Notes under the pieces: generated by a model
Told to the model about the DNA's origin: nothing
Database searches by the model: none
The model's input: only the letters and a program-made list of their open reading frames with translations
Program-made: the position numbers and the translations under genes
Part shown: positions 31,017-35,786 of the stretch, piece after piece
Layout: each line of letters opens with the position of its first letter
Position numbering within the stretch: position 1 is the stretch's first letter
Origin: Pseudothermotoga hypogea DSM 11164 = NBRC 106472
GTDB lineage: Bacteria; Thermotogota; Thermotogae; Thermotogales; DSM-5069
Reading direction: 5' to 3'
Length of the DNA stretch: 64,000 nt
NCBI RefSeq assembly: GCF_000816145.1
Contig: NZ_CP007141.1
Location: 372,001 to 436,000, forward strand

Positions 31017-34000
31017 TCAGAACACGTCAGCCCCGATCGACCCAGTGATGGGATCGAACGAAAAGCTCTTCTTCGGAAATTCCTTTATGAAGAATTTGAA
31101 CGAGAGTTTCTCAAGGCTGAACCCGCCGACCGTCGAAAAACTCGTCTCGAAGACCAATCCCCAACAGTGTAGGTCCTTGGTCATCGTCAGGTCGAGAGAA
31201 TTTATCTGGAAAGGCTCGAGTCTGCCCGAAAAAGAGATCTTCACCGACGGGTCGAAGTTGGAAAGTTCGTACGAAGCTCTGAGTCTGTAAGAACTTCTCG
31301 TGTAGGTCACAGAGAACGCGTGCTTTGCAGGACCCGTGTAGAAAGAACCCCTGGCCTGGATGGTGAGAAGATCGAAGGGTTGAACACTCAAGTTGTATCT
31401 CACGGACAGATTCGGCCTTTCCATGAACAGAAAGCTTTTACCCCTGATGTTCAGTTTGTTTTCCACTACGTCCACAGGGATTGTTCTGTCGTATCGGTAG
31501 GTGAACTTCGTTTCGTGACTGAAGGAACCCAAGCCCATCGTTATGTCCCAGTCCGTCTTGTAGAACCTCTCGTTCTCAATTTGATAGACTGTTTCCGTGT
31601 AGATGGACCAACGGAGCGAAAACACGTCGAAGGTGCTCGACGTTTTGATCAAAAGATCGTCCCACTTGTACCCGATCAAATCGTAGCTTGTGGAAAGCTC
31701 GACACTGCTCGTCGGAACCTTCAAGTTCGTCGAAAACGTGGCCTTGGAAAGGTCAGAAAAGTCCGAAAGGCTCGAACGAAAAACGTTGTTCAGGGAGGCT
31801 CTATTCTGATAACCAATCGAAGCGGAGAAGAAGTCGACGGGTTTGATCGTGAAAGCCGTTCGGCTCGTCTGAGAGAAAAGATATTCCGGATCCATTCCTT
31901 GAGCAAGCCAAACACCAACGCGCAGAGAAGAGTCAAACGAAAGATCAAACCAGCCTCCGCGCAGCAGCGCCGTTTTGAAAGGCAAACTCGAATCGATCTG
32001 AAAATAGTTCCTCGAGTAATTGCTCGTAATATTCGTTCCACTCAGCTCGTAAGCACCGCTCAACAACACACCGATCTGTTTGAAAACGTGAGCGGGTTTG
32101 AACTGCATCGACGCGCTGTACCGACCGAAGGTGTAGAACTCGTCCAAATGATCGAACAGGTTACCTTCGGTGTATTCTGACGACGAAACGTGTGAAAAGG
32201 AGTTGATGATCAATGAGAACGGATCTTTCAGCACTGTGAACTTCTTGATCGACACACTCGGCAAAGTCCAACGCGTCACGGTTTGCGTCTTTGTGATCGA
32301 ACTCTGGATCACGAAGTCTTTGGCTGGATTCAGAGTGTGCTGCAGAGAGAATCTTTCATCGCTGAAATACGTCGTCAACTTCGAATACAACGATGGCACG
32401 GACAACGTCGCGTTGATCTCGTAATCTTTTCCATTCGGTCCTTCGAGGTTGTAGAGATTGCTGGTGAGCTCCCATTCGCTCGCCTTGTAGTTCACCGTCA
32501 ACTGAGAGTAGTTTCCAGCTTTGTCCCCTTTCTCTCTGAAACCAACGCGAGCCGATACGTACCCGTTCGGGTACGTCAAATTGTAGACGCTTTCGATGTT
32601 GAAGCCCTCACCCTTCGAATAACCCATCTTCACGGAGAACGGCTGTGGGCCTTCACGCAGAGAGACGAAATAGACGGGAAAATAAACCGTGGGAACATCG
32701 AAGACAAACAAGACGACGTTGTAAGCGGCGAGATAGTCATTCTCCTTTATCTCCACGTTGGTTGCCTGGAGCCTGTAATGTGGCCGTTCGAGATCGCAGG
32801 TCGTCAGGTAGGATCTTCGGAGTTCTCCGATGCCTTCTTTCATTTGTGAAGACTTCGCGGTGAAGTAGATCGTATGCTTCACTTTCTCTTCGTCCGAGAA
32901 GATCGTCTTGCCTCTGGCTTCAACGATGAGCGCCAATTTCTCGGAAAAGACATAGTAGAGCTGTTGAGCCCTTATTTGAGTATCTTTCCTGTTGTACGAC
33001 ACGTTTCCCTCTGCGAGGATCTTTTCAACCTCGTTCGCATCGTTGAGAAAAGCGGTCAACGTCGAGCACTGGATGAAGACGTCTTCGTAAGATGCTTCGA
33101 CCCCCTGTGAGAGGATCAACTTTCCCTCCTCGAAAACCACGTTGCCACCTTTGAGCTGCATAGTCGCAGCCTGCGCATGTGAGGCGAGAAGTATCACGAA
33201 GAGAACGGCCAAAAATCTGGTCAAGAGTTCCCTCAATCTGTAACTGACGTGCGTGTCGAGCAATATGAACAACACCGTGCCGACGACTCCGAAGCTGAGA
33301 TCAGGCAGCCAGGCCGCAAGGACTGGGTTGATGAGGTTCTCCTTCCCCATGGCACTGATCCAGGCACCAGAGCCTTGGTACAGAACGATCAGAACGAAGG
33401 TGAGTATGACACCCCAGGATTTACTCCTCAAGTTAAACATGAGGGACAGAGGAACTCCCACGAGCGCTATTATGATGGGACCGAGTGCAACGGAATAGCG
33501 CGAATGCAGTTCGACCACCCACGGTGCCGGGTCTATACCGAGTTTCCTGAGCGTGGAGATCCTCTCCCTCAGCTCTTCGCTCTTCATGTCCCTCGGTGTC
33601 TTACCAGTTCTCAGGATCGATTCGATGTCTTGCTTGAGATCGAGTTCAACCTTCGAAAAACTCACGTCGAAACGTAAGAAACCTTCCTTATCGACTCTGT
33701 ACATTCGACCGTCGTACATGAACCATTTGTTTCCCTCTTTCGTCACGCGTCGTGCCGTGATGATCTCTTCTTCTGAAGGCTCGTTCCTGAACAGGACCAC
33801 ATTCTCCAAAACTCCGTTCTGCCTGTCGTACTTCTTCACGTAGAAGTACTGGTTCTCATCCACCTTGGTCAGAACGTTCTCGCTGATGAACACCTCCGGT
33901 TTTCTGTAAACGTACTTGGAGAGCACTTGGTCCGCCTTCTGGTTGAACACGGGAACGATCCTGTCGTTGAGCACGTAGGCCGCGAGACTCAATATCGCGC

Positions 34001-34328
34001 CAATCAGCAAGAAAGGAACGATCAAGACCTTCATCGAAATACCGTGCACTTGCATAGCCATGAGTTCGCGATCGTTGGACAGTTTCGATAGCACCCAGAA
34101 CACTGCAAGAAGGATACCAACAGGTACCCCGAGCGCGGTGAAGTAGGGAAGATAGTAGTACAGGATTCTCAAAAGCACGAAGAAACTGACTCTGTGTCTG
34201 ACGATCAGGTCGGAAAGTTGATAGAGTATCTCAACGCTCACAAAAATTATGAAGCCCCCAAGACCGATGAGGACTGGACCCAACGAGAGTTTGAACAGAT
34301 ATTTAGTCAGAATCGCCAAACAGGACAC
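31017..34328 (-). CDS. LptF/LptG permease fused to LptD-like outer-membrane assembly protein
   Basis: 1103 aa from GTG 34328; TTG 34319, 6 nt after AAGGTG, is an equally good start. Residues 1-355 form a YjgP/YjgQ permease: three N-terminal helices, a periplasmic beta domain and three C-terminal helices. Residues about 365-387 (FLAVLFVILLASHAQA at the end) look like a signal peptide with an AxA cleavage site. After it comes an OstA domain (MQLKGGNVVFEEGKLILSQG) and an LptD region (YLTTCDLERPHYRLQATNVE; DVPTVYFPVYF), then about 500 residues of alternating aromatic beta strands ending in Phe. One polypeptide thus encodes an inner-membrane transporter part and an outer-membrane barrel. Its substrate in the toga envelope is unknown. 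Confidence 0.85.
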   Translation of the reverse strand: MSCLAILTKYLFKLSLGPVLIGLGGFIIFVSVEILYQLSDLIVRHRVSFFVLLRILYYYLPYFTALGVPVGILLAVFWVLSKLSNDRELMAMQVHGISMKVLIVPFLLIGAILSLAAYVLNDRIVPVFNQKADQVLSKYVYRKPEVFISENVLTKVDENQYFYVKKYDRQNGVLENVVLFRNEPSEEEIITARRVTKEGNKWFMYDGRMYRVDKEGFLRFDVSFSKVELDLKQDIESILRTGKTPRDMKSEELRERISTLRKLGIDPAPWVVELHSRYSVALGPIIIALVGVPLSLMFNLRSKSWGVILTFVLIVLYQGSGAWISAMGKENLINPVLAAWLPDLSFGVVGTVLFILLDTHVSYRLRELLTRFLAVLFVILLASHAQAATMQLKGGNVVFEEGKLILSQGVEASYEDVFIQCSTLTAFLNDANEVEKILAEGNVSYNRKDTQIRAQQLYYVFSEKLALIVEARGKTIFSDEEKVKHTIYFTAKSSQMKEGIGELRRSYLTTCDLERPHYRLQATNVEIKENDYLAAYNVVLFVFDVPTVYFPVYFVSLREGPQPFSVKMGYSKGEGFNIESVYNLTYPNGYVSARVGFREKGDKAGNYSQLTVNYKASEWELTSNLYNLEGPNGKDYEINATLSVPSLYSKLTTYFSDERFSLQHTLNPAKDFVIQSSITKTQTVTRWTLPSVSIKKFTVLKDPFSLIINSFSHVSSSEYTEGNLFDHLDEFYTFGRYSASMQFKPAHVFKQIGVLLSGAYELSGTNITSNYSRNYFQIDSSLPFKTALLRGGWFDLSFDSSLRVGVWLAQGMDPEYLFSQTSRTAFTIKPVDFFSASIGYQNRASLNNVFRSSLSDFSDLSKATFSTNLKVPTSSVELSTSYDLIGYKWDDLLIKTSSTFDVFSLRWSIYTETVYQIENERFYKTDWDITMGLGSFSHETKFTYRYDRTIPVDVVENKLNIRGKSFLFMERPNLSVRYNLSVQPFDLLTIQARGSFYTGPAKHAFSVTYTRSSYRLRASYELSNFDPSVKISFSGRLEPFQINSLDLTMTKDLHCWGLVFETSFSTVGGFSLEKLSFKFFIKEFPKKSFSFDPITGSIGADVF

Positions 34329-35010
34329 CTTCCCCTTTCTTGAAAAGCTTCATCTGGTCTCTGAAGCACTTATAGTTGGACCCAGAAACGGCGTAAAGTA
34401 CCGATTCAACGACGTTCGTGCATAGGTCCGCCACCTCTTCGAGTTCCTGCGCGATCTCCAACAAGCAAAGGATCCGCTCTGATTGCTCCGGTTTCTCCTT
34501 CAGCAAGTTCGTGAGCTCCGATCTCATTTCCTCAAACAACTCGTCTATCTCCTCGTCCCTCGTGCACACCTCAAAGGCCCTTTCAGATTGCATGTCTGCC
34601 ACGACACCGAGGGTTTCTCTAAACAACGTCGCAACATTTTTCGCCATTCTGACGATGTTCGGATCGATGCTTGCAGACTGTTCTGTGTAGAAAGAAATTA
34701 GGAGTTGAGCCATCCTACGTGTTTTGTCACCTATCTTCTCCAGAATGTTTGCCACTTCCAGTGAACTGACTATGAACCTCAAATTGAAACCTGTGGGTGT
34801 GTACGTACCGAGCAGCACGGTGGCTTCCTCTCTCAACTCGACCTCCATAGCGTCAAGCATGTCGTCGTCTTCAACGACCTGCTTCGCCGCAACAATCTGT
34901 CTGCTCTCCATCGACTCGATCACTCTTATCATCATCTTTTCGGCGAACCAGCCCATCTTCATCAAGGCTTTCTTGAATCTCTCGATCTTCTGATCCAGAA
35001 GCCATTTCAA
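34303..35010 (-). CDS. PhoU-family protein
   Basis: 235 aa, all helical, with two PhoU three-helix repeats (about 15-115 and 120-215) bearing acidic metal-binding patterns such as ANILEKIGDKTRRMAQ and AQELEEVADLCTNVVE. PhoU proteins modulate phosphate uptake and the PhoR/PhoB kinase pair. No pst transporter genes are nearby; the gene sits among housekeeping genes. The 3' end overlaps the lptFD start by 17-26 bp and the start overlaps nadK by 4 bp. Confidence 0.85.
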   Translation of the reverse strand: MKWLLDQKIERFKKALMKMGWFAEKMMIRVIESMESRQIVAAKQVVEDDDMLDAMEVELREEATVLLGTYTPTGFNLRFIVSSLEVANILEKIGDKTRRMAQLLISFYTEQSASIDPNIVRMAKNVATLFRETLGVVADMQSERAFEVCTRDEEIDELFEEMRSELTNLLKEKPEQSERILCLLEIAQELEEVADLCTNVVESVLYAVSGSNYKCFRDQMKLFKKGEGVLFGDSD

Positions 35011-35786
35011 GATTCGTTCACACCCTTTCCATAACCAACCTTGTTCTTCAGCACGGAGAAGAAGTCGTACCTTTTGGGTCTCAGCAACGAAAAACTTCTG
35101 CTGGACCTGCTCACGAAAATCTCCTTCGTCGTACCCACACAGACACCGTCTACCACGAGTTCAGACTCGAGCTGGCTCACGATGTGGATGTTCCTGTCCG
35201 CAGGCAACACTATGCTACGGTTCTGAAGATAGTACGGTGCCACAGGCATGATCTGTACAACTTCACAACTTGGTATGACGATCGCCCCACCCAGAGAGAG
35301 GTTGTAAGCGGTGGAACCCGTGGGCGTGGACACGAGCACGCCATCTGCAAAAAAATCCAGATCGCTACAACTGTCTATGGAAACCTTGAACTCGCTCATA
35401 GGCTTGGTTTTCGCACGCACTATCGCATCGTTCACGGCGTCGAACTCCCTTTCACCCATCACGATTCTCAACATCCATCTTTTCTCGAGCACGAGGCTCC
35501 CATCCTGCAGATCCGTGAGGAACTGTTCCGCCTCTTCTATCTTGTACGGCGTCAAGAAACCGATCCTGCCGGCCTTGAAGCCAACTATCGGCACCGACAC
35601 GCACTTCACGGCCCTCAGAACCGTACCGTCACCGCCCACCACGATTGCAAAGTCACAATCAGTTTCAATGCGTCGGCAGGAAAGTTCCTCAACCTTCAGC
35701 ACGTTCAGTTGGTTTTTAACGCGTTCGTACAGTTCCTGTGCTTCCTTATCCTTTCCGGATTTGTACAGAACGATACACGTACTCAA
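35007..35786 (-). CDS. nadK: NAD kinase
   Basis: 259 aa. The catalytic GGDG motif is in AIVVGGDGTVLRAVK; VPIVGFKAGRIGFLTPY, ADGVLVSTPTGSTAYNLSLGG and the C-terminal VSQLESELVVDG segment complete the family. It makes NADP from NAD and ATP in the cytoplasm. It overlaps yggT upstream and phoU downstream by 4 bp each, so translation is probably coupled. Confidence 0.94.
   Translation of the reverse strand: MSTCIVLYKSGKDKEAQELYERVKNQLNVLKVEELSCRRIETDCDFAIVVGGDGTVLRAVKCVSVPIVGFKAGRIGFLTPYKIEEAEQFLTDLQDGSLVLEKRWMLRIVMGEREFDAVNDAIVRAKTKPMSEFKVSIDSCSDLDFFADGVLVSTPTGSTAYNLSLGGAIVIPSCEVVQIMPVAPYYLQNRSIVLPADRNIHIVSQLESELVVDGVCVGTTKEIFVSRSSRSFSLLRPKRYDFFSVLKNKVGYGKGVNES

Follow-up and report, generated by a model that had tools for sequence, protein, structure and literature searches.

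The window analyzed here is a stretch of 64,000 nucleotides from Pseudothermotoga hypogea DSM 11164 (contig NZ_CP007141.1, positions 372,001 to 436,000). On its reverse strand, a single uninterrupted open frame of 1103 codons runs from GTG 34328 to a stop codon at 31017–31019 and encodes an LptF/LptG-type permease followed by an LptD-like protein (Table 1). TTG 34319 is a possible alternative start, and an AGGGG run lies a short distance 5'. The original prediction, made from sequence alone, had described this frame as a six-helix permease, a seventh segment with an AxA site, an OstA domain, and a beta-rich tail ending in Phe. Pfam, hydropathy, profile and fold analyses confirmed this layout: the AxA site is A-Q-A at residues 385–387, and Phe is the last residue of the protein.

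The fused gene is probably co-transcribed with the PhoU-like gene that overlaps it; a functional link has not been shown. An NAD kinase gene and the PhoU-like gene precede the fused gene (window 34303..35786), and the order NAD kinase, PhoU-like, permease recurs in a distant family (locus L095). This neighborhood is conserved without any obvious tie to lipid export.

Table 1. Features of the fused gene and its upstream neighbor, in window coordinates
Feature	Position	Strand	Basis or remark
Fused lptF/G-lptD gene	31017..34328	-	GTG start, 1103 aa
PhoU-like gene	34303..35010	-	Directly upstream; end overlaps start of fused gene
LptF/LptG permease, residues 1-357, six helices and periplasmic beta domain	33258..34328	-	PF03739, structure matches
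Signal-peptide-like internal segment, residues 364-387	33168..33239	-	Hydropathy, motif pattern, AF2 pLDDT
OstA (LptA/LptD-type N-terminal beta domain), residues 391-556	32661..33158	-	hmmsearch, PF03968 in relatives, hhalign
Cys511 (YLTTC)	32796..32798	-	Invariant; aligns with E. coli LptD Cys173
Predicted outer-membrane barrel of LptD type (array of beta strands), residues 564-1103, last residue Phe	31020..32639	-	AF2, Foldseek
Cys1055 (KDLHCW), near C-terminus	31164..31166	-	Conserved; candidate partner of Cys511

Identity of the two halves

Computation establishes the domain identities of this protein. The Pfam model LptF_LptG (PF03739) spans residues 9–354 with an E-value of 9.8e-80 and 268.7 bits against a curated cut-off of 27.9, and a sequence search with the window protein retrieved LptF and LptG chains from solved structures. 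Neither the LptF nor the LptG equivalog cut-off of NCBIfam was reached by this protein. The permease half belongs to the LptF/LptG family but is strictly neither F nor G. Its hydropathy profile contains six permease helices, followed by a seventh peak at residues 372–390, and the arrangement of six helices around a periplasmic beta domain agrees with the secondary structure predicted by AlphaFold2 (AF2).

The C-terminal half of the window protein scores below the Pfam threshold, also for PF03968, a model that was detected in 15 of 30 relatives. The NCBIfam LptD model matches residues 488–580 (E 7.5e-7); LptD matches of this kind sit far under the curated cut-off. By way of hmmsearch, profiles of the C-terminal halves from the phylum retrieved the LptD structures 4n4r (E 7.3e-7) and 8h1r (E 9.7e-6), and LptA structures as well. 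Alignment of the C-terminal profile to E. coli LptD with hhalign gave a probability of 94% (E 1.5e-7) and placed the PxxYxPYF motif of the profile on VPIFYSPYL of the E. coli protein.

The AF2 model of residues 387–1103 has a mean pLDDT of 90 and is beta throughout, with about 33 strands and one short helix. In a Foldseek search of the PDB with this model, ranks 1–33 were all LptD, starting at E 1.8e-21, and the next barrels followed at 5e-6 or worse. With the full-length model, LptD occupied ranks 1–15 and LptF/LptG appeared from rank 16, with nothing else at the top. The original prediction would have failed had no barrel or OstA fold emerged; the check was run, the predicted fold matches LptD best, and OstA profile matches were found. 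Based on profiles and predicted fold, the C-terminal half is very likely an LptD, which is about as sure as computation allows for domain identities. The TM-scores are just 0.33–0.45 for the 15 best matches, and the predicted 33 or so strands exceed the 26 of LptD. Closure of the modeled barrel is therefore unproven and its exact form unsettled. One family (f9, with Kosmotogaceae and Mesotoga among its members) has a fused protein extended by about 350 residues (1434–1494 aa), and nearly all of the surplus lies within the LptD half (L035, L041, L045, L070, L077, L081, L084).

E. coli LptD joins its N-domain to C-terminal strands through Cys173 and the 724/725 pair. Cys511, which falls on Cys173 in the alignment, is present in 65 of 65 sequences, and Cys1055 is kept in 53 of 63. 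Relatives from Bipolaricaulota contain two plus two cysteines, in the motifs TTCxC and FCxxCW. Cys511 and Cys1055 may form a pair, a tentative assignment: no disulfide has been demonstrated, and for the C-terminal cysteine the equivalence is inferred purely from its position.

These data bear on the possibility that the C-terminal half is not an outer-membrane gate but a scaffold or bridge that remains periplasmic or anchored to the inner membrane. In favor of this reading, barrel closure is unverified and the localization lacks experimental data. Against it, the fold matches to LptD are stronger than those to other barrels by many orders of magnitude, the Cys173 equivalent is invariant and accompanied by a conserved C-terminal cysteine, the chain terminates in Phe, and BamA is present. 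We consider the scaffold reading very unlikely.

Occurrence of the fusion and natural splits

A six-frame search of 103 Thermotogota genomes found a relative in 102. The fusion, defined in this phylum as a permease that continues for at least 200 residues further in the same frame, occurs in 94 of the 103. Five loci are cut by contig ends (G001, G031, G061, G097 and G055), two genomes lack a permease match (G004 and G032), and two (G005 and G054) are true separations. The relatives come from Pseudothermotoga, Thermosipho, Fervidobacterium, Mesotoga, Marinitoga, Athalassotoga and other genera. Unexpectedly, a scan of named bacterial genomes also returned eight loci from Bipolaricaulota/Acetothermia, all eight of them fused. 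Among 100 Bipolaricaulota genomes, 90 contain a permease above the cut-off, and in 76 of these 90 the open frame that holds it is 960 aa or longer. The latter count rests on frame length; the LptD half was directly verified only in the fetched loci. The survey of the fusion covers Thermotogota and Bipolaricaulota only. Members of both groups have been described with an outer membrane that is detached at the poles (PMC10665443).

A separating stop codon, which the original prediction had named as a possible refutation, was looked for, and the halves proved unseparated in almost all relatives. That the fusion is phylum-wide and common to Bipolaricaulota goes beyond what had been seen in the window. 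Could an assembly error or readthrough have joined two neighboring genes? A few genomes with broken frames (G041, G093) would speak for such an artifact, but the same open frame occurs in about 170 genomes from two phyla, many of them closed, and we can all but exclude this explanation. In G093 (L099:3404-6696) and in Marinitoga lauensis (G041, L104) the permease half is split over overlapping frames, possibly by sequencing errors or by real frameshifts.

Three lineages have the gene separated at the junction. In G054 the permease ends in ...PLKRLLG; a few bases beyond its stop codon lies the ATG of a distinct LptD gene, whose 848-aa product carries a signal peptide at the N-terminus. In G005 LptD is a separate 849-aa gene on another contig, again with an N-terminal signal peptide, and two permease genes that are sisters in the tree stand in tandem (L101:3410-5743, L103:3253-5802). 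This tandem pair looks as if a heterodimeric LptF/LptG had evolved anew. The third lineage comprises the Bipolaricaulota genomes G151 and G152, in which an OstA-type lptA/C-like gene, lptB, lptF/G and an adjacent separate lptD are co-directional (L215:118-5233, L216:3791-9729). The start codon and signal peptide of these lptD genes could not be pinned down, so that a signal peptide is clear in two split lineages only. All three lineages nest within fused clades. We therefore reject the idea that the unfused state is primitive within the phylum and regard these cases as later fissions. Support for the deep split of the tree is low (0.59, 0.79), and E. coli is the only outgroup. Since split genes exist in three lineages, the two halves can work unlinked and permanent linkage is not needed. 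Fused species contain one permease per genome; this, together with the duplication of the permease after one fission (G005), fits a homodimer in fused species.

The junction and the fate of the chain

LptF and LptG end in the cytoplasm, and a tail that is to be exported therefore requires a new signal. The segment between the two halves consists of an R/K-rich n-region, the h-region FLAVLFVILLA and the c-region SHAQA, with a predicted cut after A387. It meets the sequence criterion for a signal peptidase I substrate, with n-, h- and c-regions and small residues at −3 and −1. The junctions of relatives follow the same pattern of Arg/Lys, a hydrophobic stretch (median 12 residues; TM1 and TM3 of these proteins have 21 and 19) and small residues such as AQA, LFS, GFS or AFG. 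Those of Bipolaricaulota are textbook-like, with clear sites such as AWA/Q. In site score the junctions show no difference from the LptA signal peptides of the phylum (Mann–Whitney P 0.43), which end alike (AFS/K, TFS/G); the junction h-region is somewhat shorter (P 0.02). Mean column identity is 0.33 at the junction versus 0.57–0.86 across the six permease helices. The sequence thus drifts fast while the pattern of charged, short hydrophobic and small residues persists. In the full-length AF2 model pLDDT falls below 50 exactly at residues 380–387. The cleavage-site score was dropped as sole evidence, since it also flags TM5 of the permease highly owing to the conserved QGSGA motif; only the combined evidence counts.

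An alternative origin for the exported half would be internal translation initiation, by which the in-frame segment would serve as an ordinary N-terminal signal peptide. The window does contain a TTG preceded by GAGG in the right place, at residue 369. Against this reading, a start codon with such a motif was found in the junctions of only 14 of 65 species, against a background of 13% in sequence windows elsewhere in these genes, and an in-frame ATG occurs in the junction of 22 of 65. An internal start is not conserved, and we reject it as very improbable.

A second alternative leaves the chain uncleaved: a seven-helix permease would remain covalently joined to the LptD barrel, and one polypeptide would span both membranes and hold pump and gate to each other. 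The near-universal fusion in two phyla suggests selection that keeps the halves together, and the hydrophobic junction segment could serve as an anchor. If true, this would be a one-polypeptide lipid exporter, from pump to surface gate, acting where the toga touches the cell body. Against this reading, the seventh helix (ending at 381) and the barrel (from 564) are separated by only about 180 residues, which are folded as a beta domain. By analogy with the LptD N-domain, we estimate that such a stretch reaches about 6–7 nm. The periplasm of ordinary diderms measures about 20 nm. Given this distance and the detached poles (PMC10665443), an uncut chain could not reach. The three lineages with separate genes also argue against this reading, and we judge an uncleaved chain very unlikely. 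Of the two outcomes that the original prediction had left standing, cleavage or a single chain, cleavage is favored by the junction, the independent fissions and the short reach. Its interpretation of a permease and an LptD-like protein with an extra segment for re-export is likewise supported, the latter by a signal-peptide-like junction inferred from sequence alone.

Partner genes, cargo and relation to known Lpt systems

Searches for lptB, lptC and lptA, also called for by the original prediction, established that LptB is present and that a single gene scores as both LptA and LptC. One LptB match per genome exceeds the curated cut-off in 21 of 21 genomes. A 207-aa protein with a signal peptide scores as LptC, over the cut-off, and as LptA/LptD_N. 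Its gene (L119:7476-8099; 1097475-1098098 in the P. hypogea genome) lies upstream of an apparent serS and is the only separate OstA-fold gene found in this genome. It is possible that one protein does both the LptA and the LptC job. There is one gene each for signal peptidase I and BamA. None of the 203 genomes searched contains LpxC (0 of 103 Thermotogota, 0 of 100 Bipolaricaulota), which the search did recover from E. coli and other controls. A cargo based on lipid A is therefore unlikely, and a non-LPS lipid is probable; which lipid can at most be inferred. The original prediction had likewise left the cargo open, as Thermotogales are not known to make classical LPS.

We propose that the gene product is a precursor of two proteins. 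The permease would take its place in the inner membrane, its C-terminus facing the cytoplasm, and the following segment would act as an internal signal peptide that routes the remaining chain through Sec. Signal peptidase I would cut after A387. As the genome has a single permease gene, the permease would pair with itself on an LptB dimer. BAM would fold the half set free by the cut into an outer-membrane LptD gate, and the LptA/LptC-like periplasmic protein would bridge permease and gate. In this way an amphipathic lipid other than classical lipid A-based LPS would be moved to the outer surface. We regard this explanation as likely, but it is without experimental support: cleavage, outer-membrane location, homodimer and cargo are all inferred. 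The Bradyrhizobium FbcH cytochrome b/c1 precursor, in which a polytopic membrane protein and an exported protein are made as one chain and cut in two, is a precedent for fusion via an internal signal sequence. FbcH differs in that it belongs to a respiratory complex and both of its products remain in the inner membrane.

The system described here is a known one in variant form. It shares with E. coli Lpt (LptB2FG, LptC, LptA, LptDE) a homologous permease, the ATPase, an OstA-fold protein, and an LptD with the Cys173 equivalent. Unlike in E. coli, the gate is encoded together with the permease, one permease stands in place of the LptF and LptG pair, the LptA and LptC matches fall on the same gene, and in the absence of LpxC there appears to be no classical LPS. 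Lpt proteins occur in the LPS-lacking diderms Borrelia and Treponema, orthologues in Thermus and T. maritima are mentioned, and a glycolipid cargo has been proposed for such systems, T. maritima included (PMC10353723, which credits a 2015 review for the T. maritima orthologues). These systems are Lpt without LPS, as here; the relevant sections of that paper do not mention the fusion. The Lpt cluster of diderm Firmicutes similarly has just one LptF/G homologue, accompanied by LptB and by proteins with OstA domains, but these bacteria have LPS genes and no LptD was identified in them (PMC5007114). We found no description of the fusion in the literature searched; subscription papers were not covered, and it may be noted elsewhere.

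A 2022 survey reported Thermotogae to be without nearly all outer-membrane genes examined, bamA excepted (PMC8871954). The present analysis reveals a nearly complete Lpt route across essentially the whole of Thermotogota; its LptD had escaped notice as the terminal part of a permease gene. The fusion itself is real, conserved and surprising. Its occurrence in both phyla described with a detached outer membrane ties gene architecture to envelope type and makes it a candidate shared marker for early-branching bacteria. The question which lipid is moved by an Lpt machine without LPS has become testable. In P. hypogea, the LptB gene (G000:C1:1697014-1697712) lies directly downstream of an OmpH/Skp-like gene (L118:7015-8198).
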